Assembly (NCBI GenBank): GCA_034440155.1
Contig: JAWXBN010000032.1
Location: 1 to 38,402 of the forward strand
Direction: 5' to 3'
Length of the DNA: 38,402 nucleotides
Origin: Verrucomicrobiota bacterium
GTDB lineage: Bacteria; Verrucomicrobiota; Verrucomicrobiia; JAWXBN01
Shown in pieces: positions 6,030 to 25,828 of the stretch. The position numbers and the translations under genes were made by a program. Numbering within the stretch: the first letter of the stretch is position 1; each line of letters opens with the position of its first letter. A model generated the notes under the pieces. The model did no database searches. It saw only the letters and a program-made list of their open reading frames with translations, and was not told where the DNA came from.

Positions 6030-6803
6030 ATGATTCCGATCAAGAATGAGCGAGAAGTTCAATTCATGAAGGACTCATGCAAGACAGCGGCACTGATCCG
6101 AGATCGACTTGCACAGGAAGTGAGGCCTGGAGTGAGTACACGTGAGCTTGACGATCTGGCTCGTGAGTTGATTGCCAAAGCTGGAGGTAAAAGCCCATTT
6201 TACGGTTATGGAACTAGAAAAAAATTTCCAGGTCACATCTGTGTTTCTGTAAATGAAGAGGTCGTACATGGTATCGGTTCGGACAGACGTTTGCAGCTTG
6301 GGGATATTGTGAAGTTGGATGTTGGAATAATCCTCAATGGATGGATAGGTGATACAGCGATAACAGTCCCGGTTGGTATGGTGACATCAGAGGTTAATCA
6401 CCTGATGCATGTGACTTTGCAATCCCTTTATATTGGGATTGACCAAGCGAGGGCGGGTAATCATGTCCACGATATAGGAGCAGCGGTTGATCGTTACGTT
6501 TCGGAAAATAAATGTGCGGTTGTCAGAGAATTTGTTGGACATGGTGTAGGAAAAAGGTTGCATGAGGAGCCTCAAGTTCCAAATTTTGGCAAACCAAAGA
6601 CGGGAGCCCGCCTAAAGCCTGGTATGACATTAGCGATTGAGCCGATGGTTAACCTAGGGACGAGTGAGGTAAAAATCCTCTCGGATGGATGGACAGTAGT
6701 AACGGCAGACAAAAAAGCGTCTGCACATTTTGAACATACGGTTCTGATTACAGACGGCGAACCTGAGATTTTGACATGGACCGAAAGAATGGCATTGAAA
6801 TAG
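6030..6803 (+). CDS. map: Methionine aminopeptidase, type I
   Basis: The enzyme removes the initiator methionine from new proteins. From the ATG at 6030 it is 257 residues, and AAAAGG at 6015-6020 supports that start over the in-frame ATG at 5994, which would add 12 residues. The five metal ligands of the pita-bread fold are visible in order: Asp in KLDVG, Asp in GDTAIT, His in VGHGVG, Glu in AIEPMV and Glu in HFEHTVL. The substrate-binding His lies in EVVHGIG. The gene overlaps infA by 28 bases. Confidence 0.96.
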   Translation: MIPIKNEREVQFMKDSCKTAALIRDRLAQEVRPGVSTRELDDLARELIAKAGGKSPFYGYGTRKKFPGHICVSVNEEVVHGIGSDRRLQLGDIVKLDVGIILNGWIGDTAITVPVGMVTSEVNHLMHVTLQSLYIGIDQARAGNHVHDIGAAVDRYVSENKCAVVREFVGHGVGKRLHEEPQVPNFGKPKTGARLKPGMTLAIEPMVNLGTSEVKILSDGWTVVTADKKASAHFEHTVLITDGEPEILTWTERMALK

Positions 6804-6994
6804 CTGGGCGTGTATTGGATGTAATGAATGAACGCTTGGCGGAAATTGAATTTCCTAATCAACATAAGTTGGTCGGTTTTATCGAACCACCTGATATGGA
6901 AAAGTTTAAAAATAGGCTTGTGCAAGGAGCTCAAGTTATTGTAATATGTTCCTCTTTCGACTTTTCGAAAGGACGAATAATAAAAATCGAATGA
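6776..6994 (+). CDS. infA: Translation initiation factor IF-1, divergent
   Basis: This is a 72-residue protein of exactly IF-1 length. It aligns end to end with the OB fold: [21 protein letters not shown] at the start and [10 protein letters not shown] at the end. Many otherwise near-invariant residues are changed, including the central HIS/GKMR region, which here reads [12 protein letters not shown]-1 binds the A site of the 30S subunit during initiation. The start codon lies inside map (28-base overlap), and the position between map and rpmJ is the typical infA slot. Confidence 0.88.
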
Positions 6995-7010
6995 TAGAAA
7001 AACAGCTATT

Positions 7011-7124
7011 ATGAAAGTAAGACCATCAGTGAAAAGACTTTGTGAACATTGCAAAATTGTTCGGAGAAAGAACGTTGTCCGAGTGATTTGCAAAAACCCA
7101 AGACATAAACAGCGCCAAGGTTAA
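7011..7124 (+). CDS. rpmJ: 50S ribosomal protein L36, zinc-binding form
   Basis: This short gene of 37 codons runs from the ATG at 7011 to TAA at 7122-7124. The protein begins [15 protein letters not shown] and ends [10 protein letters not shown]. The zinc ligands C11, C14, C27 and H32 are all present, so L36 keeps its zinc site while S14 in the same operon does not. L36 stabilises 23S rRNA near the L7/L12 stalk base. It lies 16 bases after infA and 12 before rpsM. Confidence 0.96.
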
Positions 7125-7136
7125 TTTGAGGTAAAT

Positions 7137-7532
7137 ATGCCACGTATTTTAGGTATTGATATTCCGAACGAAAAGCGAATTGAAATTTCGCTCACATACA
7201 TTTATGGAATCGGCTTAAGCCGATCCCAAATGATTCTAGAGGAGGCTGGAATTGATTCCAACATCCGCGCCAAAGACCTCAGCGATGAGCAAATTGGTAA
7301 AGTCATCAACGCGATCAAAAAGAATAATTTTATCGTGGAAGGTGATCTACGCCGTGAGCTCCAGCAAAACCTCAAGCGCCTCCAAGCGATCAATTGTTAC
7401 CGTGGTATCCGTCATAAAAGAGGGTTACCGGTACGTGGTCAACGGACTAAATCAAACGCACGTTCCCGGAAGGGACCACGTAAGACAGTTGGTGTCCAAA
7501 GGAATCCGAACGCAAAGGCGGGCAAGGTATAA
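7137..7532 (+). CDS. rpsM: 30S ribosomal protein S13
   Basis: A 131-residue S13. It starts with [26 protein letters not shown] (helix-two-turn-helix) and ends with the C-terminal signature [23 protein letters not shown] followed by a basic tail. S13 sits in the 30S head and contacts P-site tRNA and the L5 bridge. It is followed by rpsK, as in other alpha operons. Confidence 0.98.
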
Positions 7533-7557
7533 TCTTTGAAGAATAATAAGGCAAACT

Positions 7558-8043
7558 ATGGCAGACGAAAAGAAAACTAAAGAAGCAGGCAAACCGACTG
7601 AAAAAGTCGCTTCCATGGAGTTATTAGAAAATTTAAGCCTAGATCCTAATGCTCCGGTAGAAAAACCAAAGATTATCAGGGTCAAAGGTGCTAAGAATAT
7701 CTCCACTGGTGTGGCGCACATCTTGGCTACTTTTAACAATACAATTGTCAGCTTTACAGACGTGTCGGGAAATATCCTTTCATGGAGTAGTGCTGGAAAA
7801 TGTGGATTTAAAGGTTCACGTAAGAGCACGGCTTATGCAGCTCAGGTTGTGGCACAAGAGGCTTCAAAAGGTGCTATGTCCCATGGATTAAAGGAATGTG
7901 AAGTATGGGTGAAAGGGCCGGGATCGGGCCGTGAGTCGGCAATCCGTGCGCTGCAAGCCATTGGTTTGGAAATTACAATTATCCGGGATGTGACCCCTGT
8001 ACCACACAATGGTTGCCGTCCACGCAAGAAACGTCGTGTATAA
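7558..8043 (+). CDS. rpsK: 30S ribosomal protein S11 with an acidic N-terminal extension
   Basis: The core ([21 protein letters not shown] through [17 protein letters not shown]) is a canonical S11 of about 115 residues. The protein is 161 long because about 30 extra, partly acidic residues ([11 protein letters not shown]...[13 protein letters not shown]) precede it, where other bacteria have about 15 basic ones. S11 lies on the 30S platform next to the E-site mRNA. No internal ATG would give the normal length, so the extension is probably real. Confidence 0.96.
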
Positions 8044-8066
8044 TTTTTTGAGGAGATATTAATATT

Positions 8067-8675
8067 ATGGGTCGTCTTTTAGGTGCTAAAACAAGAATCA
8101 GTCGCCGTTATGGTGTTGCGTTATTCGGACCAAGCAAAGCCTTGGAAAGAAAAAATTACCCACCGGGAATTCATGGTCCCAAAGGTAAAAGAAAAGGCTC
8201 AGAATATGGTGCCTTACTTGCAGAAAAACAAAAACTTCGTTATCAATACGGTTTGATGGAAGGACAATTTCGTCGCTTTTTCCAACAGGCTAAAAAAGTT
8301 CGTGGTGTTACAGGTGCTACATTCTTGCAATTATTAGAGCGTCGTATCGATAACGTTACTTTCCGTACAGGATTTGCTACTTCACGGCGTGGGGCAAGAC
8401 AATTGGTGGTTCATGGTCATATCTTAGTTAATAGTGTTAAGGTCACCAGTCCTTCATACATTGTGAAGGCTGGCGATACAATCGAAGTTAAGAATAAGCC
8501 CGGTAGCCGCCAATTAGCTCAAAAGAATATTGACGTAGCTTCATTACAAGTAGCCCCAGAATGGATCTCTGTGGATAAAGAGAAATTTAAAGCAATTGTT
8601 AACCGGATCCCAACACGCGAAGATATTCAAGTTAATGTCAATGAGCAATTAGTTGTAGAGTTTTACTCACGCTAG
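8067..8675 (+). CDS. rpsD: 30S ribosomal protein S4
   Basis: The protein has 202 residues. The N-terminal domain has SRRYGVALFGPSKALER and the conserved GQFRRFFQQAKKVRG. The S4 RNA-binding domain follows at about residues 90-150 (RRIDNVTFRTGFATSRRGARQLVVHGHI). There is no zinc-type Cys cluster in the N-terminal domain. S4 nucleates 30S assembly and, in enterobacteria, represses the alpha operon. A 99-base spacer with a hairpin follows before rpoA. Confidence 0.97.
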   Translation: MGRLLGAKTRISRRYGVALFGPSKALERKNYPPGIHGPKGKRKGSEYGALLAEKQKLRYQYGLMEGQFRRFFQQAKKVRGVTGATFLQLLERRIDNVTFRTGFATSRRGARQLVVHGHILVNSVKVTSPSYIVKAGDTIEVKNKPGSRQLAQKNIDVASLQVAPEWISVDKEKFKAIVNRIPTREDIQVNVNEQLVVEFYSR

Positions 8676-8722
8676 TCATACTGATTTATAGAGGGTTTTT
8701 ATCAAAAAATTATGCTGTAGGT

Positions 8723-8748
8723 CCTGTCTTTTAAAGCCCTGAGACAGG
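8723..8748 (+). promoter_or_regulatory. Hairpin in the rpsD-rpoA spacer
   Basis: CCTGTCT at 8723-8729 pairs perfectly with AGACAGG at 8742-8748 across a 12-base loop. There is no following T-run, so it is not a standard terminator. It sits in the longest gap of the ribosomal operon, just upstream of the rpoA ribosome-binding site (AAAGGAG). It could be an attenuation, processing or feedback element for RNA polymerase alpha levels; the function is inferred. Confidence 0.45.
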
Positions 8749-8774
8749 GTAACCCAGCAAAAGGAGTATAAGAT

Positions 8775-9794
8775 ATGCCAGTTCGTTTAGGTCGTTTTGA
8801 GATGCCGAAGCGTCTCGTTAAAGATGAAGAAAATCCTTCAGAAAATTATGCCAAGTTTGTCGCGGAGCCCTTTGAGGCTGGATATGGGCATACGATAGGA
8901 AACTCACTCAGACGTGTTCTCTTGTCTTCTCTGGAAGGAGCTTCAATTGTAAATGCAAAGATTGAAGGAGCTCAGCATGAGTTCTGTACAGTTCCCGGAG
9001 TGGTAGAGGATGTAGTCGAGATCATTATGAACCTTAAAAAAGTTCTATTTTTGATCCATGACCGTGAAACTAAGAAAGTAACGATTTCCGTAAATAAGGA
9101 TGGAGAAGTGACTGCTGCGGACTTCCAATGCCCCTCTAATATCGAGGTCGTTAATCCTCACCAACATATTTGCACACTCGACCGTAAACAAAAATTTGAA
9201 GCAGAGTTTGAGGTTAGTGTCGGACGTGGGTACATGAGTGCGGATGAAAACAAATTTCCGGATATGGCGATTGGGGTTATTCCTGTAGATGCGCTTTTTT
9301 CACCCGTACGTAAAGTAAAGTACAGTGTTGAAAATTGCCGTGTCGGACAACGGACAGATTATGACAAGTTAATTGTGGAGGTGTGGACTGATGGACGTAT
9401 TACACCTGAAGATGCTTTAACACAATCATCGGCAATTCTCAGACATCACTTGGATGTGTTTGTTGATTATAATAATACCGAAATTGAATTTGAAGAAGCG
9501 TCAGCTCCTGCATCTGAAGAAGAAAATAAACTCAAGAAGATACTCATGATGAGTGTTAACGAGATTGAACTCTCAGTGCGTGCTGCAAATTGCCTTAATA
9601 ATGCCAATATTACAACTGTTGGCCAATTAGCCATGAAGTCTGAGGCTGAAATGCTCAAGTACCGTAACTTCGGTAAAAAATCCTTGAATGAAATCAAGGA
9701 TAAACTCAAAGAGCTCCAATTAGGATTGGGAATGAAATTTGACAACTCTCTTGTTGAAGCGATTAATGCGGCGACAATGGGGCAACAACGATAA
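8775..9794 (+). CDS. rpoA: DNA-directed RNA polymerase alpha subunit
   Basis: The 339-residue alpha subunit has both domains. The N-terminal dimerisation domain contains FEAGYGHTIGNSLRRVLLSSLEGA and PGVVEDVVEIIMNLK. The C-terminal domain (from about residue 255) contains LSVRAANCLNNANITTVGQL and YRNFGKKSLNEIKDKL, the part that binds UP elements and activators. A Glu/Ser-rich linker joins them. AAAGGAG before the ATG is a strong ribosome-binding site. Confidence 0.98.
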   Translation: MPVRLGRFEMPKRLVKDEENPSENYAKFVAEPFEAGYGHTIGNSLRRVLLSSLEGASIVNAKIEGAQHEFCTVPGVVEDVVEIIMNLKKVLFLIHDRETKKVTISVNKDGEVTAADFQCPSNIEVVNPHQHICTLDRKQKFEAEFEVSVGRGYMSADENKFPDMAIGVIPVDALFSPVRKVKYSVENCRVGQRTDYDKLIVEVWTDGRITPEDALTQSSAILRHHLDVFVDYNNTEIEFEEASAPASEEENKLKKILMMSVNEIELSVRAANCLNNANITTVGQLAMKSEAEMLKYRNFGKKSLNEIKDKLKELQLGLGMKFDNSLVEAINAATMGQQR

Positions 9795-10642: not shown

Positions 10643-10668
10643 AAAAAGGCCCCGTATATTACGGGGCC
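10643..10668 (-). terminator. Terminator of the mtaC transcript
   Basis: GGCCCCGTA and TACGGGGCC (10648-10668) form a perfect 9-bp stem with a 3-base loop. On the - strand it is followed by TTTTT (complement of 10643-10647). It lies 70 bases beyond the end of the corrinoid-protein gene and so should end that leftward transcript. Confidence 0.85.
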
Positions 10669-10738: not shown

Positions 10739-11374
10739 TTATTTTGCAGCCAATTTACGGGCAAGTGACACAGCAGAGCTTGCATTATCACTATAACCGT
10801 CAGCGCCTATTTCGTCAGAGTACTGTTGGGTAACAGGTGCTCCGCCGATCATGATTTTCACCTTGGCACGGTCTCCTGAGGCCTTAAAGGCATCGATAGT
10901 TGTTTTCATAGCAGGCATCGTCGTTGTCAGGAGTGCTGAAAGGGCGACGATATTAATATTCTTTTCCTTGATGGCCTGGATGAATTTCTCCGGGGAGACA
11001 TCAACACCGAGGTCTGTGACTTCAAATCCACCACCTTCAAGCATTGCTGATACCAGGTTTTTACCGATATCATGAAGATCGCCCTTTACAGTACCGATGA
11101 GAACTCGTCCGATGGGTTCTGTTCCTTTAGCAGCCAAAAGAGGTTTGATCAGTTCGAGACAACCTTTCATGGCACGTGCAGCAATCAGGAGTTCTGGAAC
11201 GAAGTATTCATTTGCCTCAAAGCGACGGCCGACTTCATCCATGGCTTTAATCATGTATTCATTCACGAGTAGCTCGGGATCTGCTCCTTCAGCAAGAGCC
11301 TCCTGAGTGATTATTTTAGCTGCTTTTGCATTACCTTCTACGACTGAGTCATAGAGTTTAGCGAGGTCTGCCAT
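10739..11374 (-). CDS. mtaC: Corrinoid protein of a methyltransferase system (MtaC-like)
   Basis: The 211-residue protein has an N-terminal helical cap (about 1-85) and a Rossmann B12-binding domain. The cobalt-ligating motif GDLHDIG has His101. Downstream are SALL (S146) and GG (177-178), which hold the nucleotide tail of base-off cobalamin. Such proteins carry a methyl group between a substrate methyltransferase and an acceptor methyltransferase. AAGGAG precedes the ATG. The gene reads away from mtaB, with araC between them. The sequence alone does not separate MtaC from MtbC/MttC types; the neighbouring MtaB favours methanol. Confidence 0.88.
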   Translation of the reverse strand: MADLAKLYDSVVEGNAKAAKIITQEALAEGADPELLVNEYMIKAMDEVGRRFEANEYFVPELLIAARAMKGCLELIKPLLAAKGTEPIGRVLIGTVKGDLHDIGKNLVSAMLEGGGFEVTDLGVDVSPEKFIQAIKEKNINIVALSALLTTTMPAMKTTIDAFKASGDRAKVKIMIGGAPVTQQYSDEIGADGYSDNASSAVSLARKLAAK

Positions 11375-11422
11375 ATGTTTGTCTCCTTGCGGATGGTATT
11401 CGTTTTTGTTTGGTTATATTGT

Positions 11423-11437
11423 TTTGTGATTCACAAA
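11423..11437. promoter_or_regulatory. Perfect palindrome upstream of mtaC
   Basis: TTTGTGA and TCACAAA flank a single central T, a 15-bp perfect dyad about 50 bases upstream of the mtaC start. The position fits an operator or activator site. The arms resemble CRP/FNR half-sites, but the spacing of one base does not fit those families (six or four). Confidence 0.45.
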
Positions 11438-11459
11438 GGCGTTGTGCCTTCTATGAGTG

Positions 11460-11468
11460 TGATACTAT
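11460..11468 (+). promoter_or_regulatory. TGATACTAT word, copy 1 (upstream of mtaC)
   Basis: The 9-mer TGATACTAT occurs here in the araC-mtaC spacer. It recurs at 12438-12446 between araC and mtaB, so it is a candidate binding element for the AraC-type regulator encoded between the two sites. A nearby hairpin at 11491-11509 (CATTAAA/TTTAATG, 5-base loop) may belong to the end of the araC transcript. Confidence 0.35.
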
Positions 11469-11526
11469 TTCATACATTAAAAAAGAGCATCATTAAAAAA
11501 TGTTTAATGAGTCCTGATAAGGAGAT

Positions 11527-12438
11527 TTAAGAGCGTTTTCCTCTGAATTCACTTGGAGTCAATGTGGTATAGCGTTGGAAGACTGTTGCAAAATATTGGG
11601 AAGACGAAAAACCGAGGTTTATAGCGATATTTGTGATAGAATCTTTATTTTGCGAAAGAAGCTTTTTGCCTTGTTCGAGTTTCCGACGCAAAACGTATTC
11701 AGCAGGGGGAAACCCTGTTTCTTCTTTAAATCTCGCCTTAAAACGTGAAACGGAAAGATTAGCGATGACGGCTAACTCTGGCACGGAGAGGGGATCATAG
11801 AGGTGTTCATGGATGTATTGGATGGAATCAAGGATCTTGTCGGATTGTAGATAGGGTTCGAATTCTTCGGCGGCTTCCACTACTTTCAGGAGGAAGGACA
11901 TAATATAATGGGCGACCATCATCCGTTTTGTGTGGATGTCACCATTTTTAAAATTACCGATAGCGGCATCTAAATATTCATTTAAGCTTTCGGGCACCTT
12001 GAAATGTTGATGTTTGGCATTTAACAGCCTTTTTATGAGCTTTTGCCCATCAATTAGTCGCGGACAGAATATTTGATTTTTTTTATTAATGGGGATTTGT
12101 AACCAGTAGAGCAGTCCTTTTTCTTCGGGCTGTCCGGCAGTGCTATGGGGCTGATCAGGTAAAATAACTAATGCATCTGATCCGAAAAGAAACCGTTTGA
12201 CGCCTTCGGTTTCAAATATTTGTTTTCCACGGGCCAGATATATAATCTCGATTAGGTCCTTATGCTTGTCTCTTTGGAGCGGTGGTTGGGAGGTGTTATA
12301 CTCATAACGACCGAGTAATTTGACTTCTTTGAGGCCCAGCCTAGAGAAATGACAAACCGTGCGGGTGGGGTTCGGATTTTTATCCATGTATGATTCTGTA
12401 CTGTAGGACAAGAATGAAAGCAAACCTTTTTCAAACAT
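11527..12438 (-). CDS. AraC-family transcriptional regulator
   Basis: The protein has 303 residues. The N-terminal ~150 form a cupin-type sensor region (YLARGKQIFETEGVKRFLFG...DALVILPDQPHSTAG is typical). The last ~100 residues carry two helix-turn-helix units: LSVPELAVIANLSVSRFKARFKEETG and the signature IAINLGFSSSQYFATVFQRYTTLTPSEFR. The start at 12438 has CAGGA ten bases upstream on its strand. It lies between mtaC (same strand, 152 bases on) and mtaB (divergent), so it probably controls the methyltransferase genes in response to the methyl donor or a derived signal. The inducer cannot be read from sequence. Confidence 0.93.
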   Translation of the reverse strand: MFEKGLLSFLSYSTESYMDKNPNPTRTVCHFSRLGLKEVKLLGRYEYNTSQPPLQRDKHKDLIEIIYLARGKQIFETEGVKRFLFGSDALVILPDQPHSTAGQPEEKGLLYWLQIPINKKNQIFCPRLIDGQKLIKRLLNAKHQHFKVPESLNEYLDAAIGNFKNGDIHTKRMMVAHYIMSFLLKVVEAAEEFEPYLQSDKILDSIQYIHEHLYDPLSVPELAVIANLSVSRFKARFKEETGFPPAEYVLRRKLEQGKKLLSQNKDSITNIAINLGFSSSQYFATVFQRYTTLTPSEFRGKRS

Positions 12439-12446
12439 GATACTAT
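12438..12446 (+). promoter_or_regulatory. TGATACTAT word, copy 2 (araC-mtaB divergent region)
   Basis: This is the second exact copy of the 9-mer found upstream of mtaC, in the same orientation. It lies at the araC start codon, about 29 bases before the mtaB start. Binding here could both limit araC and activate mtaB. This is inference from position. Confidence 0.35.
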
Positions 12447-12474
12447 GATCCTGTTAAATCAACCAAGGAACCAG

Positions 12475-13860
12475 ATGACAAAATATACAGGTATGCAAGT
12501 AAACACGGTGGAGGATTTCACATATGGAAAATGTGTGAAGCCCGTAACAACAAAGAGGGGACTCGTGATCGGTGGAGGCACGGTTTATCCGGAATTAAAC
12601 TTCACACTACCAGCGATAAATATCGAAGACAGTACATGGCCCCAGATAAAAGGGCATTATCAGCAGATGATCACAGAAGCTTGTCAAAGGGCTGTTGAGC
12701 TATATGCACCAGGGCTAGTAGTAGAGTTTGAGACATTGCCTCCAATGACGATCAAACCAGAATGGGGCGCTGAAATTACGGGTATTCTCAGACAGACATT
12801 GGACACCTATTATGATAAGCATGGTTTATTGGGTGCTTTGCGTATTACACCTAATGATATCCGCGAACATGAAAGACCCCCCTATATGAGACAGGGGCAT
12901 CTTTGGGAAAATATGCTGAGCAGCTTTCACCAGTGTTGTGAAAAGGGTGCTGATTTTATCTCGATTGAATCGACGGGTGGAAAAGAAGTCAATGATGATG
13001 CGATGATTATGGGTGACCTTAAAATGGTTACATTTGCCCTTGGAGTCATGGCTTGCCGCGACATGAAATTCTTGTGGGAGCATATCGTTAGTATATGTAA
13101 CCAGCACGGAGTCATTCCTGCAGGAGACTCTGCTTGCGGATTTGGCAATACAGCGATGGTTCTCGCTGATAAAAGGTTTATTCCAAAAATCTGGTCTGCC
13201 ATTATTCGCGTAATGACGGTACCACGTACTTTGGTAGGTTACGAAGCAGGTGCCATTGGGCCGAGTAAGGATTGTGCTTATGAAGGGCCATATATAAAGG
13301 CGATCACTGGGTGTCCTATCTCGATGGAAGGTCGTGATGCCGCTTGTGCACACTTATCTCCCGTAGGGAATATATCCCAAGCGCTTGCCGATTTGTGGAG
13401 TAATGAATCCGTTCAGAATGTAAAGCTCTTGGGAGCCATGGCTCCGACGGTGTCATTGGAACAATTAGTCTTTACCACGCGATTCATGAATACTGCATCG
13501 AGCAAGGGTAAAGCTGTCAATAACCAGCTCCGGGATATCATGGTTGATTCGGATTGCTCCTATGATCCACAAGCCTATGTTTTGAGGCCTGATGTCGTTC
13601 TTAAACTCTCCAAAGAGATTATTAAAGAACCGACCCCGTACCTCCAGACAAGAAAAGCGGCTTTAGTGGTATTGCAGGAATTACGTGATGCTGCCGCCAA
13701 GAATTTATTCCCGATGAGTAAGATGGAACAAATTTGGCTGGATAAACTCTCAAAACAATCAGATCAATTGCCGGAAGACGAAAATGAGATGATTGCGGAT
13801 GTCATCGACGATATTGATCGTGATAAAGTCCGTCTTGAAGAGTACGGTATTAAGGGATAG
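12475..13860 (+). CDS. mtaB: Methanol:corrinoid protein methyltransferase (MtaB)
   Basis: This is a 461-residue zinc enzyme that activates methanol and methylates the Co(I) of a corrinoid protein. Long blocks match MtaB: EWGAEITGIL, ESTGGKEVNDDA, the PRTLVGYEAGAIGPSKDCAYE region, KAITGCPISMEGRDAACAH and LADLWSNESV. The zinc ligands known for the Methanosarcina enzyme (Glu164, Cys220, Cys269) correspond here to Glu165, Cys221 and Cys267. The ATG at 12475 is chosen because AAGGAA lies five bases upstream and it aligns with the family start; an in-frame ATG at 12445 would add ten residues. The gene is divergent from araC and followed by its own terminator. Confidence 0.93.
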   Translation: MTKYTGMQVNTVEDFTYGKCVKPVTTKRGLVIGGGTVYPELNFTLPAINIEDSTWPQIKGHYQQMITEACQRAVELYAPGLVVEFETLPPMTIKPEWGAEITGILRQTLDTYYDKHGLLGALRITPNDIREHERPPYMRQGHLWENMLSSFHQCCEKGADFISIESTGGKEVNDDAMIMGDLKMVTFALGVMACRDMKFLWEHIVSICNQHGVIPAGDSACGFGNTAMVLADKRFIPKIWSAIIRVMTVPRTLVGYEAGAIGPSKDCAYEGPYIKAITGCPISMEGRDAACAHLSPVGNISQALADLWSNESVQNVKLLGAMAPTVSLEQLVFTTRFMNTASSKGKAVNNQLRDIMVDSDCSYDPQAYVLRPDVVLKLSKEIIKEPTPYLQTRKAALVVLQELRDAAAKNLFPMSKMEQIWLDKLSKQSDQLPEDENEMIADVIDDIDRDKVRLEEYGIKG

Positions 13861-13889
13861 TTTTCTCCTTCCATATCACTGGTTTCCAC

Positions 13890-13915
13890 GCTGCAACTGG
13901 GGTTGCAGCTTTTTT
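13890..13915 (+). terminator. Terminator after mtaB
   Basis: GCTGCAAC (13890-13897) pairs perfectly with GTTGCAGC (13902-13909) over a TGGG loop, followed by six T residues. It separates mtaB from the next transcription unit. The remaining ~145 bases before the next gene hold no recognisable gene. Confidence 0.9.
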
Positions 13916-14060
13916 GTGTGCCTATGGATAGTAGTCGCAAGGCACTGGGCGAGTTTAAAATGGTCGTGAAGGTGTGAAAATGGTGGAACTTTGTCCTGAT
14001 TGACAGGTGATTTTTGTAGCAGACTCTTCACATTCCAGAGGCTATTGATAACATGTATTT

Positions 14061-15077
14061 ATGACATCAAAAGAACGAATTTTAGCAGTGCTCCGAGGTC
14101 AAAAGCCTGACCGGATTCCGAATATGACGATCACTATGATGTTCGCATGTGATCAAATCGGGGCGAAATATTATGATTATGCGATGGATCACCGGGTGAT
14201 CGTTGAGGCCCAGATAAAAACGGCGGAGAAATTCAAAATCGATCATCTTTGCTCCATGACAGATCCTGCGCGTGAGTCGGCTGATTGTGGTGCTCATGTG
14301 AAATATTACGATAATCAACCACCTGCTATTGACGAATCTGATGCGTTACTTTTAGACAAGACTAAATTGATTAAACTAAAAATCCCCGATCCACTAGGTG
14401 GAGGAAGAATGCATGACCGGGTGAAAGGTGTGGAATTATATAAAAAGCTGTCCGGGGATTCACGAATGATCGAAGGTTGGGTGGAGGGGCCCTGTGCTGA
14501 GGGGGCTGATCTAAGGGGGATCAATAACCTGATGATGGATTTTATGGACGACCCGCAATTTGTTCAGGACTTGTTTGCTTTTAATGTCGAGATGGCCATC
14601 CGTTTTGCTAAAGTGCAGGTGGAGGCCGGTGCTGATTATATCGGTATTGGTGATGCGGCCGCATCATTAGTCGGGCCCAGGATTTATGAGGAGTTCGTTT
14701 TTCCTTATGAGAAAAAATTAGTGGATGCTATCCACGAAATGGGGTTGCCAGTGCGCTTACATATCTGTGGTAATACCCAACGCATACTGGCTGGAATAGC
14801 ACGACTGGGAGTGGATATTTTTGATTTAGATTATTGTGTGCCGATGAATAAAGCCAGAGAGTTAATGGGACCCAAACAAGTTATTTTCGGGAATATTGAT
14901 CCAGTCAGGCAAATGAGAAATAGTACTCCGGAAAAGGTGTATGAGGATATTAAGTTATGCCATGAGCAGGCAGGCCAAAACTATGTGATCGGGGGGGGGT
15001 GTGAAGTACCTCGCGATACCCCGCAAGCATGCCTCATGGCATTGGCGGATTATGCGGATAATGCCGTTATAGAATGA
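14061..15077 (+). CDS. MtaA/UroD-family cobamide methyltransferase (first copy)
   Basis: A 338-residue uroporphyrinogen decarboxylase-fold protein of the MtaA/MtbA/CmuA branch. The N-terminal SKERILAVLRGQKPDRIP is typical. The zinc motif of thiol or folate methyltransferases is present as His234-x-Cys236 (RLHICGNT) and Cys314 (GGGCEVP). In methanogens MtaA moves the methyl group from corrinoid protein to coenzyme M; a bacterium would more likely use tetrahydrofolate. Nine consecutive G at 14991-14999 encode the three glycines just before Cys314. It heads the second + strand unit of the cluster and lacks a clear ribosome-binding site. Confidence 0.85.
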   Translation: MTSKERILAVLRGQKPDRIPNMTITMMFACDQIGAKYYDYAMDHRVIVEAQIKTAEKFKIDHLCSMTDPARESADCGAHVKYYDNQPPAIDESDALLLDKTKLIKLKIPDPLGGGRMHDRVKGVELYKKLSGDSRMIEGWVEGPCAEGADLRGINNLMMDFMDDPQFVQDLFAFNVEMAIRFAKVQVEAGADYIGIGDAAASLVGPRIYEEFVFPYEKKLVDAIHEMGLPVRLHICGNTQRILAGIARLGVDIFDLDYCVPMNKARELMGPKQVIFGNIDPVRQMRNSTPEKVYEDIKLCHEQAGQNYVIGGGCEVPRDTPQACLMALADYADNAVIE

Positions 15078-15174
15078 GGAGTTAAGAGGAAAATACTCCC
15101 CTTTGTATGGAATTATACTGCATTTCACATAGTCATTTTTAGGCAATGAGAGTTATGTGATATGAAAATCCCCT

Positions 15175-15921
15175 ATGAAAAAATATAAATTAATCAGTTG
15201 TGAAGTATTCTACCGTGAAGTCTGCTGGGTTGTATCCCGATCGTGTAACCAGATAGATATCGAGTTCCTTCCCAAGGGGTTACATGATCTTGGCTGCCAT
15301 AAAATGTTTCAAGAGGTTAATAAGATAATTTCAGCGGTGGATAATGATAAATATGACGCTGTCCTTCTCGCTTATGGCCTCTGTAACAATGGGTTAGTCG
15401 GGGCGGCAGCCCGGAAAATTCCTTTGGTCATGCCACGTGCACACGATTGCATTACGGTTTTTTTAGGCAATAAAGAGCGTTATCTCGAGTATTTTCAAAA
15501 TAATCCCGGGAGCTATTTTAAAACCTCAGGCTGGATGGAAAGGGGCAAGGGGGACCAGATGGATTCACAAATGTCCATCCAAAGCAGTAACGGGATGGAT
15601 AAAACGTATGAAGAAATGGTGGAGAAATACGGAGAGGAAAATGCGAAATTCCTTTATGAAGAACTCTGCGAGCACACAAAGAACTATGGGCAAATGACCT
15701 ACATTCACATGGGGATCGAGCCAGGGAATCAATTTGAGAACATGGCCCGCGACCAAGCAACTGAAAAGAACTGGAAATTCGAGAAGATACAAGGCGATTT
15801 ATCCTTGCTGCAACGCCTCGTGGACGGGCAATGGAGTGAACATGAGTTTTTAGTTTTGGAGCCGGGACAGAAAATCGCCCCGAGCTACAATGAATCAATC
15901 ATTAAAGCTGAAAAGGTCTAA
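15175..15921 (+). CDS. DUF1638 protein associated with corrinoid methyltransferases
   Basis: The 248-residue protein belongs to the uncharacterised DUF1638 family, recognised by conserved Cys9 (LISCEVFYRE), YGLCNNGLVG with Cys70, and PRAHDCIT with His90 and Cys92. These spaced Cys/His residues could form a metal or corrinoid site, but this has not been seen directly. It lies between two MtaA-like genes and its stop is immediately followed by the ATG of the second, so they are almost surely co-translated. The role is unknown; handling of the corrinoid or the methyl acceptor is a reasonable guess from context. Confidence 0.8.
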   Translation: MKKYKLISCEVFYREVCWVVSRSCNQIDIEFLPKGLHDLGCHKMFQEVNKIISAVDNDKYDAVLLAYGLCNNGLVGAAARKIPLVMPRAHDCITVFLGNKERYLEYFQNNPGSYFKTSGWMERGKGDQMDSQMSIQSSNGMDKTYEEMVEKYGEENAKFLYEELCEHTKNYGQMTYIHMGIEPGNQFENMARDQATEKNWKFEKIQGDLSLLQRLVDGQWSEHEFLVLEPGQKIAPSYNESIIKAEKV

Positions 15922-16956
15922 ATGAACTCACTTGAAAGAATCCAATCTGTCATGACAGGACAGATCCCTGATCGTGTGCCGGTTTGCCTGCATAATTTCT
16001 TATTGGCCTGCCATGAGGCCGGGATTCCTGTGGATCAATACCGCCTCAATGCTCGCTTGATTGCTGAGGTTCATCTAAAAGCATTGGAAAAATACGAATA
16101 TGATTGTGTCTTGATTGATCTCGACACAACCATGGCCGCCGAGGCAATGGGAGCTGTATCCGAGGTCGCTCCGAATGGAGTAGGCAGTATCCACGGGACC
16201 TTGCTCCGCTCATTGGACGAAGTCAAAAAGTTGAAAGTATTAGACCCATACAAAGACGGTCGTATCCCGGTATTGCTGGAGTCTATTCATATCCTCAAGG
16301 AAAAGCTCGGGGGAGAATTTGCAATCAGGGGAAATTGTGACCAGGGGCCGTTTTCTCTCGCCGCACTCCTGCGGGGGATGAATGACTTCATGATGGACTT
16401 GGCCGATGATCCCGATCATCCCGCCATCCGTGATCTTCTGGAAATAACCTATCAAAGCCATCTGAAGATCCATGAGGCTGTCCATGCGGCGGGAGCCACC
16501 ATGACTTCCCTTGGGGATAGTGTTTCTGGCCCTGATGTCCTTTCACCAAAAATGTTTACTTCATTTGCGCGGGGTTATCATGAAAGGCTTTTGAAGGATT
16601 TATCTGATCGCGGTATATTTACCGTGATACACATTTGCGGGAATACGACCCGTATTTTGGAGCAACTTGCACAGTACCCATTTTGCGGATTTGAATTAGA
16701 TTACAAGACCGATTCCGCTAAGGCGAAAGACTTGGTCGGAAAAGACCATGTGTTACTCGGCAATATCGACCCGAGCTCGATTCTGGCATTTGGCACTCCA
16801 GAATCAGTGGCGGAGAAAACACGCGAATTGATTACGTTATGGAAGCCCGGTGGAAAATTTATCCTGAATGCTGGTTGCGCTATTAATGCAAATACACCCT
16901 CGGATAATCTTTTATCAATGATGAGAACCCTCAGGCAGGAAGGACTTTATGCATAA
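15922..16956 (+). CDS. MtaA/UroD-family cobamide methyltransferase (second copy)
   Basis: This 344-residue protein is a clear but distant paralogue of the gene at 14061, with MNSLERIQSVMTGQIPDRVP at the start. The zinc-binding set is His237-x-Cys239 (VIHICGNT) and Cys319 (LNAGCAI). The conserved LLGNIDP is also present. It begins directly after the DUF1638 stop and overlaps the next gene by eight bases. Two such proteins in one cluster suggest either two acceptors or donors, or division between methyl transfer to the carrier and transfer from a second substrate. Which one serves MtaC is not decided by sequence. Confidence 0.83.
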   Translation: MNSLERIQSVMTGQIPDRVPVCLHNFLLACHEAGIPVDQYRLNARLIAEVHLKALEKYEYDCVLIDLDTTMAAEAMGAVSEVAPNGVGSIHGTLLRSLDEVKKLKVLDPYKDGRIPVLLESIHILKEKLGGEFAIRGNCDQGPFSLAALLRGMNDFMMDLADDPDHPAIRDLLEITYQSHLKIHEAVHAAGATMTSLGDSVSGPDVLSPKMFTSFARGYHERLLKDLSDRGIFTVIHICGNTTRILEQLAQYPFCGFELDYKTDSAKAKDLVGKDHVLLGNIDPSSILAFGTPESVAEKTRELITLWKPGGKFILNAGCAINANTPSDNLLSMMRTLRQEGLYA

Positions 16957-18472
16957 TCCCCAGAAGTATTTGATTAAACTCATGCCGATGAATAAGACCC
17001 TCGAATATTACGAGGGAGAATCTTTACAAGATATCCTCTTTGTTGAAGGAGTGGAGTTTCCTTGTGGTGGGCGTGGAAAATGTAAGGGCTGCCGAGTCAA
17101 GGTGACCGAGGGAAATATCCCTGCCACGGATATTGAAGCACAAACCCTCTCCCCGAAAGAATTGGAGGAGGGATGGAGGCTTTCATGTAAGGTCAAAATC
17201 TCAGATGAGGTGACACTAGAGTTGGCACAATGGGAGGCAAAAATCCTGACTGACGATACGCAATTTGCTTTTATCTCAAAAAAAGGTCTCGGTATTGCCG
17301 TTGATCTGGGTACGACGACCTTGGTGGCACAGCTCTTAGACCTCCAGACAGGTAATGTCTTGGCGGTGAAGTCTGCCTTGAACCCCCAAGCCCGCCACGG
17401 CGCAGACTTGATGAGCCGCATTGATTTTTCTGTGACCCAAGGAAAACAAAAAATCCTCCAGGAACTCATTCATAAAGAAATAGGAATTCTCATTGTAGAG
17501 GTTCTCAATGATGCAAAACAGGATGCCGACAACCTTGTGGAAACGGTGATCGTCGGCAATACCGTGATGCATAATCTTTTTTGCGGGATAGACCTGACCC
17601 CGATGTCTGTTTACCCATTTGAACCCATTAATGACAGCCTCGTGGTGATGACGGCTGAGGAGCTGGGTTGGACATTTGCAAGTCAGTCTAAAGTCCTTTT
17701 CCTGCCTTGTCTTGGCACTTTTGTGGGGAGTGACATTCTCGCGGGGGTACTGGCTACCGAAATCTATTTGAAAGACAAAATAAATGTCTTGATCGACTTG
17801 GGCACCAATGGGGAGATGGTCGCTGGTAATAAAGACCGTATGATCTGTGCTTCCACAGCAGCTGGGCCAGCTTTTGAAGGGGCGAGAATATCCATGGGGA
17901 TGAGGGCTTCGACAGGGGCGGTGTCAGAGGTTACTATCGAAAATGGGAAATTAAATCCACGAGTGATTGGAACTGGGGCGGCTCGTGGGATATGCGGAAG
18001 TGGCCTTGTAGATGTGGCTGCGGGAGCTTTGGAGCTGGGATTAATGAACTACCGCGGCAAAATCCAATCAGGGGACGAAATGCCGCTGGTGGATAATGTA
18101 GTCGTCACTCAGACGGATATTCGTGAGCTTCAGCTCGCCAAAGGGGCCATTGCTGCAGGTGTCAAAATCCTTCTTGCTCAACTGGGTAAAACCTATGACG
18201 ACGTGGATAAACTTTATTTAGCCGGTGCTTTCGGGAATTATATAAACCGGTCTAGTGCTGAAAGGATTGGATTAATTCATTTCCCTCCAGAGCAAGTAAC
18301 CCCAGCAGGTAATACTGCTCTTCTAGGAGCAAAGCGAGCACTCTTCAGGCCTGAAAATGAGGATGGCTCCTATGCCATGCTCCGGAAAAAAATCGAACAT
18401 CTCACCTTGAGTTCTGTGCCAGAATTCCAAGACATTTATGTCGATGAAATGTTTTTTCCTCAAGAAGACTAG
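16949..18472 (+). CDS. Reductive activator of corrinoid proteins ([2Fe-2S] plus ASKHA ATPase)
   Basis: This 507-residue protein has an N-terminal plant-type ferredoxin domain with cluster ligands Cys39, Cys45, Cys48 and Cys80 (CGGRGKCKGC...LSC). A linker and a DUF4445/ASKHA ATPase domain follow from about residue 112 (GIAVDLGTTTLVAQL, then IDLGTNGEM, STAAGPAFEGA, GICGSGLVD and YLAGAFGNYI). Proteins of this design (RACo and related activators of O-demethylases) use ATP to reduce accidentally oxidised Co(II) back to Co(I). It overlaps the preceding gene by eight bases and completes the methyltransferase set. Confidence 0.92.
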   Translation: MHNPQKYLIKLMPMNKTLEYYEGESLQDILFVEGVEFPCGGRGKCKGCRVKVTEGNIPATDIEAQTLSPKELEEGWRLSCKVKISDEVTLELAQWEAKILTDDTQFAFISKKGLGIAVDLGTTTLVAQLLDLQTGNVLAVKSALNPQARHGADLMSRIDFSVTQGKQKILQELIHKEIGILIVEVLNDAKQDADNLVETVIVGNTVMHNLFCGIDLTPMSVYPFEPINDSLVVMTAEELGWTFASQSKVLFLPCLGTFVGSDILAGVLATEIYLKDKINVLIDLGTNGEMVAGNKDRMICASTAAGPAFEGARISMGMRASTGAVSEVTIENGKLNPRVIGTGAARGICGSGLVDVAAGALELGLMNYRGKIQSGDEMPLVDNVVVTQTDIRELQLAKGAIAAGVKILLAQLGKTYDDVDKLYLAGAFGNYINRSSAERIGLIHFPPEQVTPAGNTALLGAKRALFRPENEDGSYAMLRKKIEHLTLSSVPEFQDIYVDEMFFPQED

Positions 18473-24223: not shown

Positions 24224-25429
24224 ATGAGTGGGAGCAGGCAGGCAGTCATTTCTAGTCAAAACCAGCCTTATTACTCTTTGGCTGTCAAAGAACCTTTCCG
24301 GATTTTATTTATTCTTGGGTCATTAATAGCCGTTTTCGGCATCATGCTCTGGCCTTTGAACCACTGGGGTGTCATTGGATTTTATCCGAATATTGCTCAT
24401 GCCCGGATCATGGTAGAAGGTTTTTTGGGGTGTTTTGTCATTGGTTTTTTGGGTACGGCCCTACCGAGGATTCTTGATGTAGAGCAGTTAACAGTCTTTG
24501 AAACGCCGATTTTTGCCCTTTTGATGATTTTTGTCGTGGCGCTCCATTTCCTGCAGAAAACGTTTTGGGGTGATATTCTTTTTGCGGTGACATTCAGTGG
24601 CTTCATGATGGCTTTACTTGTGCGGGCGATCCTGAGGAAGGATATTCCTCCTCCGGGGTTTATCTTGGTGCCTGCGGGATTAGGCTCCGGGGTAATAGGG
24701 GCATTCATTCTGGCAATCGGTCAGGTGAGTCCGCCCGAACCATTTTTATACCTTTTTGCACAGTTACTCCTTTACCAAGGTTTTTTGCTTTTGCCGGTGA
24801 TGGGGATCGGGGCTTTTCTTCTGCCGCGGTTTTTTGGAGAGGTCAGTAAACATAACTTTCCTGAGTCAATGGCAGTTCCTCCCGGATGGATGGGCAAGGC
24901 CTTGGTGTCGGGTTTGGCCGGAGGCCTTGTGATCGTGAGTTTCGCCATTGAGGCCGGGGGGCAAATTGTCTGGGGCTGCCTTTTGAGGGGAGCCGTGGTT
25001 CTCGCTTATTTCCTGATGGAGATGAATTTACTCCAAAACTGGAAAGCCCGGGGGACTTTGGCACTGTCATTGCGCATAGCTTTAATTTGTTTTCCTGCGG
25101 GGTTATTTGCTGTGGCGAGTGCCCCGTTGCACCGCGTGGCGCTTTTACATGTATTTTTTATGGGAGGTTTTTGCCTGCTATGCTTTACCGTGGCTTCGCG
25201 AGTGGTGATGGGGCATTCAGGCCATTCCCACCTGCTCTCAGGCCGGCTCAAACCAATGATCTTTTTCTTGGTAATGCTGATCTTGGCCTTATTATGCCGG
25301 GTAAGTGCAGATTTTATCCCAGAGGTACGACTTTCGCATTATGATTATGCCGCTATTCTTTTATCAGGAGGGATATTGGTTTGGTTAATGGCATATTTGC
25401 CTTTGATGAAAATGGAGGAACCCAAATAG
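24224..25429 (+). CDS. nnrS: NnrS family membrane protein
   Basis: The 401-residue protein has about twelve hydrophobic helices. NnrS hallmarks are HARIMVEGFLGCFVIGFLGTALPR near residue 60 and, near the C-terminus, LLHVFFMGGFCLLCFTVASRVVMGHSGHSH. Conserved His residues in these segments bind heme and copper in studied members, which protect cells against nitric oxide. It is followed six bases later by a truncated globin gene, so the pair is likely one NO-response operon. It is divergent from ileS. Confidence 0.88.
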   Translation: MSGSRQAVISSQNQPYYSLAVKEPFRILFILGSLIAVFGIMLWPLNHWGVIGFYPNIAHARIMVEGFLGCFVIGFLGTALPRILDVEQLTVFETPIFALLMIFVVALHFLQKTFWGDILFAVTFSGFMMALLVRAILRKDIPPPGFILVPAGLGSGVIGAFILAIGQVSPPEPFLYLFAQLLLYQGFLLLPVMGIGAFLLPRFFGEVSKHNFPESMAVPPGWMGKALVSGLAGGLVIVSFAIEAGGQIVWGCLLRGAVVLAYFLMEMNLLQNWKARGTLALSLRIALICFPAGLFAVASAPLHRVALLHVFFMGGFCLLCFTVASRVVMGHSGHSHLLSGRLKPMIFFLVMLILALLCRVSADFIPEVRLSHYDYAAILLSGGILVWLMAYLPLMKMEEPK

Positions 25430-25435
25430 ACGATT

Positions 25436-25828
25436 ATGGAAATCACAGGACAAAATTCACTTTATGACCGGATCGGTGGCAAAGACGGCGTTATGCGTCT
25501 ACTGAATGATTTTTACGGGCGGGTGAAGCTCGATCCCGTGCTCGGCCCGGTATTTGCCTCGCGAATTGAGAATTGGGAAGAACATTTGGAGAAGATTCAC
25601 CGGTTCTGGAGCTTCCAAACCGGAGGACCGGATGTTTATGAGGGCGGTATGGGCCGACATGTTGGTTTACCCGTGGATACTCATCATTTTGACAAGTGGA
25701 TCGATGAATGGACTATATCCTGCCGGAAGATTCTTGCACCTGAGGAAGCGGGTCAAATGGTCATGGTCGCCCTACGATTCAGGAAGATCCTCGAGCAAAT
25801 GATCGAGATGAACCGACGGGCAATTTAA
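25436..25828 (+). CDS. Truncated hemoglobin (group III-like)
   Basis: This 130-residue all-helical protein starts SLYDRIGGKDGVMRLLNDFYGRV and contains HLEKIHRFWSFQTGG. The RHVGLPVDTHHFDKWIDEW segment includes the proximal-His region of the truncated globin family. The Phe-Trp-rich E-helix region fits group III. Such globins bind O2 or NO. The six-base gap to nnrS implies co-transcription and a role in NO detoxification or sensing. Confidence 0.85.
   Translation: MEITGQNSLYDRIGGKDGVMRLLNDFYGRVKLDPVLGPVFASRIENWEEHLEKIHRFWSFQTGGPDVYEGGMGRHVGLPVDTHHFDKWIDEWTISCRKILAPEEAGQMVMVALRFRKILEQMIEMNRRAI

Follow-up and report, generated by a model that had tools for sequence, protein, structure and literature searches.

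A cluster of seven genes at positions 10739–18472 of a 38,402-nucleotide contig from a Verrucomicrobiota bacterium (JAWXBN010000032.1; hereafter, the window) encodes a corrinoid methyltransferase system of the methanol type. We consider the chances about even that this system moves the methyl group of methanol to a thiol, most likely homocysteine, with methionine as the product. As judged from sequence, its components are in place: an intact MtaB, a corrinoid protein, a DUF1638 protein paired with an activase, two URO-D family proteins with zinc-thiol sites (MtaA1 and MtaA2) and, outside the cluster, a homocysteine S-methyltransferase (HMT). A preliminary description of this DNA had called the methanol-type set complete, which was confirmed, since all seven genes were present with the families it had named in open reading frame and family-profile searches.

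MtaB (12445–13860, forward strand), the predicted methanol:corrinoid methyltransferase, matched PF12176 over residues 12–467 with 541 bits (curated cut-off 25) and aligned over its full length with the MtaB of Methanosarcina barkeri (2i2x, E = 3.7e-79). The zinc ligands E175, C231 and C277 of the 471-aa reading frame correspond to E164, C220 and C269 of 2i2x; translation may start at M11 (position 12475), and with that start they become the Glu165, Cys221 and Cys267 of the preliminary description, which had placed them correctly. The window protein matched 85 of the 92 alignment columns that do not vary among 14 acetogen-clade MtaBs and the M. barkeri enzyme, all zinc ligands included. Its score against the methanogen MtaB equivalog NF040651 (391.7 bits) was below the cut-off of 720. 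The methyl carrier, an MtaC-like corrinoid protein of 211 aa (10739–11374, reverse strand), contains PF02607 (B12-binding_2) and PF02310 (B12-binding), and its closest solved relatives are 1y80 and methylamine corrinoid proteins. In a tree it grouped with the MtaCs of clusters L044, L060, L085, L022 and L029 (support 95), and a family search of the window genome found B12-binding_2 only in MetH and in this protein.

A scan of 84,980 species for MtaB yielded 80 loci, and a tree built from 91 MtaB proteins split most bacterial sequences into two sister clades, A (38 rows, support 92) and B (38 rows, support 98). Clade A is made up of non-acetogens, namely Chloroflexota, Actinomycetota, Acidobacteriota, Armatimonadota, Sumerlaeota and members of the Planctomycetes–Verrucomicrobia–Chlamydiae (PVC) group, together with the window, whose MtaB joined a mainly Chloroflexota group (support 99); clade B is mostly Bacillota, including Moorella, Sporomusa and Acetobacterium. 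The phylogenies that the preliminary description had proposed as a check placed MtaB among non-acetogen bacterial MtaBs, not in the acetogen clade, and MtaC with the MtaCs of the clusters named above.

The genes beside mtaB followed this division. An HMT of the PF02574 kind adjoined mtaB at 8 of 38 loci in clade A vs. none of 38 in clade B, DUF1638 at 8 vs. 1, and a pterin-type methyl-corrinoid:tetrahydrofolate methyltransferase (MTII) showed the mirror pattern with 0 vs. 13; the rows are kin and hence not independent, and as absolute frequencies these are lower bounds, since many loci end at contig ends. When only loci with flanks of 3.5 kb or more on each side are counted, the HMT was found at 7 of 22 (clade A) and 0 of 25 (clade B), and the pterin type at 0 of 22 and 13 of 25, respectively. 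At approximately three such HMT genes per genome, one would lie near mtaB by chance in about 2% of loci. The eight HMT loci still span four phyla (Chloroflexota, L035 and L081; Armatimonadota, L045, L050 and L065; Acidobacteriota, L060; the window's own phylum, L058 and L102) and their HMTs fall in more than one subclade of the HMT tree, as if the gene had been recruited several times. Gene order is MtaC–activase–MtaB–HMT–DUF1638 in L058 (PVC) and MtaC–MtaB–HMT–DUF1638–MtaA1–activase in L060 (Terriglobia); in clusters of this type, a methanol module would be combined with the homocysteine module known from MetH. The restriction of the HMT neighbours to the window's clade favours homocysteine as the acceptor, as do the grouping of the window MtaC with that of L060 and the close match of MtaA1 to its L060 counterpart, since that cluster holds an HMT.

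In the window genome, a stand-alone PF02574 HMT (L116) is encoded off-cluster at G000:C61:26506–27375. Its best match in the PDB is a MetH homocysteine domain (1q7m), it retains the motif of that MetH domain, NCG...GGCCGT, it is approximately 60% identical to the in-cluster copy of L058, and in the tree it grouped with five in-cluster HMTs. Its presence, grouping and motif likewise favour homocysteine. Two related arrangements were encountered elsewhere. An operon in the window's phylum (L150, G251:C4:28000–44000, at 6546–9142) combines a corrinoid protein, an HMT and a pterin-type methyltransferase without MtaB, and would constitute a split three-protein methionine synthase whose HMT is of the same kind as the in-cluster HMTs. 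At L149 (G003:C71, 2721–11613), a corrinoid protein, an activase, an HMT and, as assigned by eye, an apparent MetE-core (Mes-like) protein adjoin genes resembling those for carbon monoxide dehydrogenase (CODH) and CooC.

Several observations weigh against homocysteine as the acceptor. The grouping of L116 with the in-cluster copies was only moderately supported (80/82), and the gene stands alone on another contig among unrelated genes, unlinked to the window cluster. Its closest relatives by identity (the f30 genomes) had no MtaB among the genomes searched. The window genome has a complete MetH and would therefore not need another methionine route. Searches of the window and of 15 related loci turned up no SAM riboswitch, and a cobalamin riboswitch was absent from the window and the related loci searched, except for one AdoCbl-II match in L102. 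Only the conservation of residues points to methanol as the MtaB substrate, and the obvious second methyltransferases are the two in-cluster MtaA-like proteins rather than an HMT outside the cluster. Loss of MetH or MetE was considered as proof of function and rejected as not general, MetH being present in most genomes tested, including that of the window. No MetH match was obtained from three genomes, G391, G394 and G396; MetE-like genes are present in the first and last of these, with only a weak partial match in G394.

The preliminary description had favoured a route from methanol to methyl-tetrahydrofolate, which in this genome would be without its enzyme. No CdhC (CODH/acetyl-CoA synthase, ACS) was found by family search of the 97%-complete genome, which ruled out Wood–Ljungdahl acetogenesis, and no stand-alone pterin-type MTII (AcsE/MtvA-type) was found in it by a PF00809 search. 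That family occurred at three places: a canonical dihydropteroate synthase (DHPS), a DHPS-like protein and MetH. The possibility that one of these was an MTII was discarded, the canonical DHPS adjoining a glmM-like gene and the DHPS-like protein adjoining a pteridine-reductase-like gene and a glycine-betaine-type transporter. The DHPS-like protein (G000:C75, L017/L152; L017 569–3534) is divergent and scored 120 bits, below the DHPS cut-off; a dihydropteridine-reductase-like short-chain dehydrogenase follows its gene, and an osmoprotectant-type ABC transporter gene lies directly upstream. In control genomes, pterin-domain matches numbered 14 (Acetobacterium bakii) and 6 (Moorella stamsii), mostly stand-alone proteins of 265–330 aa. 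In a pterin-domain search of 21 MtaB genomes, no stand-alone MTII was found in the non-acetogens, except possibly in one Streptosporangiaceae genome. The methanol MTII of Moorella (named MtaA) is a 29.7-kDa protein that transfers the methyl group to tetrahydrofolate (PMC13391211), and at the acetogen loci analyzed here MTII is a 265–270-aa pterin-type protein beside mtaB. The lack of MTII and ACS favours a thiol, and homocysteine in particular, as acceptor.

Folate C1 genes themselves are present, contrary to the absence that the preliminary description had named as telling against its route: formyltetrahydrofolate synthetase, a homocysteine methyltransferase–methylenetetrahydrofolate reductase fusion, and MetH. 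No component was found that links MtaC to folate. We therefore regard it as unlikely that the methyl group enters folate C1 metabolism through tetrahydrofolate, for oxidation to formate or CO2 or for biosynthesis. Acetogens use such a route (PMC13391211), the synthetase and the fusion would be available for it, and the pterin domain of MetH, or an MtaA-like protein of new specificity, could in principle serve as the missing transferase; however, the sole reductase of the genome is the fused one, no pterin MTII adjoins mtaB outside the Bacillota sister clade, and the zinc sites of the MtaA-like proteins favour thiols (PMC10418091).

These zinc sites were found in both MtaA1 (14061–15077), a probable thiol methyltransferase, and MtaA2 (15922–16956), both on the forward strand, as the motif HICG...GC (His-x-Cys ... 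Cys), aligned with the methylcobalamin:coenzyme M methyltransferase 4ay7. A His-Cys-Cys site is typical of sulfur and selenium methyltransferases, whereas the third Cys is replaced in O-demethylases (PMC10418091), so that both proteins favour a thiol acceptor. They could be the second methyltransferase, methylating a thiol, or could instead donate methyl groups from methyl-sulfur compounds. Although MtaA2 was the closer of the two to 4ay7 (E = 1e-29) and the zinc motif is retained, the methanogen acceptor, coenzyme M, is highly improbable here: both proteins scored below every MtaA/MtbA equivalog cut-off and, with 161.9 and 175.4 bits, below that of the MtaA/CmuA subfamily (TIGR01463, 235.4), and the genome is bacterial and lacks CdhC. 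The preliminary description had already judged this acceptor unlikely, and the same evidence points that way.

The best matches of MtaA1 were proteins of the L060 and L085 clusters with the same zinc motif. In other clade A clusters (L044, L045 and L065) the URO-D proteins have the third Cys replaced and are O-demethylase-like, a hint that one MtaC may receive methyl groups from several donors. The same proteins, with the AraC-family regulator of undefined signal in the window cluster (11527–12438, reverse strand, divergent from mtaB; PF12833, HTH_18), leave some room for an O-demethylase in which a methoxylated or methyl-ester compound, and not methanol, is the true substrate of MtaB. We consider this improbable, because the window MtaB keeps its zinc ligands and nearly all columns invariant in acetogen and methanogen MtaBs and because both URO-D proteins of the window are of the His-Cys-Cys type. 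To our knowledge, MtaB of this family has been methanol-specific wherever tested. In the mtaB clusters of Armatimonadota (L045, L065 and L097), a second URO-D type with the motif HLCG...GNNL(S/A)PGTP was observed. Of the 14 URO-D family matches in the window genome, hemE and the two cluster proteins account for three; among the 11 others, one (C87:10931–11839) keeps a His-x-Cys ... Cys-like motif, and more zinc-thiol methyltransferases may exist.

A related possibility is that the cluster resembles type 1 mlp clusters, with the MtaA-like proteins engaged in the use of methyl-sulfur or methyl-selenium compounds. Two MtaA-like proteins, here both with His-Cys-Cys sites, a corrinoid protein and an activase without a folate methyltransferase match the composition of these clusters (PMC10418091). 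Type 1 clusters are, however, defined by the Mlp2 and Mlp3 lineages, so that the likeness here is at the level of composition; MtaB and DUF1638, present in the window, are not listed as their components, the clusters are not described for Verrucomicrobia (PMC10418091), and no selenium or sulfur genes adjoin the window cluster. On balance, this use appears rather unlikely.

If homocysteine is the acceptor, methanol would be bound at the zinc of MtaB and its methyl group passed to Co(I)-MtaC. Methyl-MtaC would then dock with the HMT, much as the homocysteine module of MetH is approached within one chain, or with an MtaA-like protein, where the zinc-bound thiol, with homocysteine favoured and methionine as its product, would be methylated and Co(I) regenerated. 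The system would thus resemble a split methionine synthase in which a methanol module replaces the folate module. MtaC oxidized to Co(II) would be rescued by the DUF1638 protein (15175–15921, forward strand; PF07796, 127 bits), a probable activase partner by analogy with Phaeobacter (PMC5764234), and by the ATP-driven corrinoid activase of RACo/RamA type (16949–18472, forward strand; PF14574, PF17651 and PF00111). The activase matched 3zyy (E = 2e-67), with the RACo middle and C-terminal ASKHA domains and the 2Fe-2S domain all found. The joint role of the pair is suggested by Phaeobacter genetics, in which methionine synthesis requires RamA-like and DUF1638 genes (PMC5764234), and by Ruegeria proteomics, where the demethylase MtgB and a split methionine synthase draw on one corrinoid protein, accompanied by RamA and DUF1638 (PMC12478193); both precedents also favour homocysteine as acceptor. 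The window DUF1638 is 50–57% identical to those of L044, L058 and L045. In an alignment with its relatives, C9, H37, C70, H90, D91 and C92 were invariant and may form a metal site, and its confidently predicted structure (pLDDT 84) had no significant match in the PDB.

By analogy, the MtgBCDE system of Ruegeria may serve as the closest working model. Like the window system, it and its Phaeobacter counterpart combine a modular corrinoid protein, a PF02574 homocysteine module, a RamA-like activase and DUF1638 (PMC12478193, PMC5764234); in the window, MtaB would take the place of the donor module MtgB (PF06253), the homocysteine module lies off-cluster, and the genome lacks a stand-alone pterin module MtgD. 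The MtaABC system of Methanosarcina shares the MtaB zinc ligands (2i2x), an MtaC-type corrinoid protein and His-x-Cys ... Cys URO-D proteins (4ay7), whereas the window has a bacterial host, scores below the methanogen equivalog cut-offs, has an additional DUF1638 and a bacterial RACo-type activase, and is unlikely to use coenzyme M. Acetogen MtaABC (Moorella, Acetobacterium, Eubacterium; PMC13391211) likewise has an MtaB (approximately 50–55% identical), MtaC and a RACo-type activase, but its tetrahydrofolate methyltransferase MtaA feeds the Wood–Ljungdahl pathway, for which the window genome lacks MTII and ACS, and the window differs further by its in-cluster URO-D proteins and separate MtaB clade. 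The 'core' methionine synthases MesA–MesD also pass a methyl group from a corrinoid protein straight to homocysteine independently of folate (PMC7857596); they belong to the MetE type and are supplied by MtrA, CoFeSP or an O2-dependent partner, whereas the window candidates, a PF02574 enzyme and the MtaA-like proteins, would be supplied by MtaBC.

Within the cluster, the genes for MtaC and the AraC regulator run leftward and those for MtaB, MtaA1, DUF1638, MtaA2 and the activase rightward. Terminator-like hairpins, as consensus matches only, lie 3' of the MtaC gene (10648–10668, reverse strand; 9-bp stem and T-run) and directly 3' of mtaB (13890–13909, forward strand; 8-bp stem and T6); the latter falls inside the apparent operon and could leave the genes that follow less strongly expressed than mtaB. 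The flanks are housekeeping genes, with ribosomal proteins, rpoA, rplQ and two tRNAs on one side and nadA, lspA and ileS on the other. These flanks, and the fact that the window is an entire contig (C32) of a 2.76-Mb genome (G000) that is 97.2% complete and 0.06% contaminated, make a binning error unlikely. The 'very different host group' of the preliminary description proved to be of the Verrucomicrobiota/PVC kind, as MtaB and MtaC from same-class genomes nested among those of metagenome-assembled genomes of Verrucomicrobiia, Puniceicoccales and Opitutales. It is weaker news than was claimed, because corrinoid methyltransferase genes (mtxB) occur in 19 bacterial phyla (PMC10805028) and mtaB, although patchy, was present in 13 of the 388 genomes from the window's phylum. 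Elsewhere in the window (24224–25825), NnrS adjoins a truncated-haemoglobin-like globin, likely a nitric oxide stress pair, and in a same-class genome (L107, 14878–15219) two Acido-Lenti-1 RNA copies lie approximately 300 bases apart downstream of an mtaB cluster.

Extended to the whole MtaB clade (Chloroflexota, Actinomycetota, Armatimonadota, Acidobacteriota and Verrucomicrobiota/PVC), the reading becomes more tentative: somewhat short of an even chance, we suggest that MtaB–MtaC is coupled directly to an HMT, with DUF1638 and a RACo activase, for folate-free methionine synthesis fed by methanol. Environmental methanol would then supply the methyl group of methionine and S-adenosylmethionine (SAM). 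A literature search, with most subscription journals outside its reach, found no paper coupling MtaB to homocysteine; the new part would be the swapped acceptor module, as MtaB in many bacterial phyla has already been published (PMC10805028). In metagenomes, mtaB is usually taken as a sign of methylotrophic methanogenesis or acetogenesis. If the proposed coupling holds, mtaB of non-acetogenic phyla would mark methionine and SAM supply, or another thiol route, rather than methanol catabolism, which would change how the gene is read in soils and wetlands, for example in the case of mtaB expression by Acidobacteriota (PMC10805028). The cluster would also be a readily testable example of how modules are swapped in cobalamin-dependent methionine synthesis.

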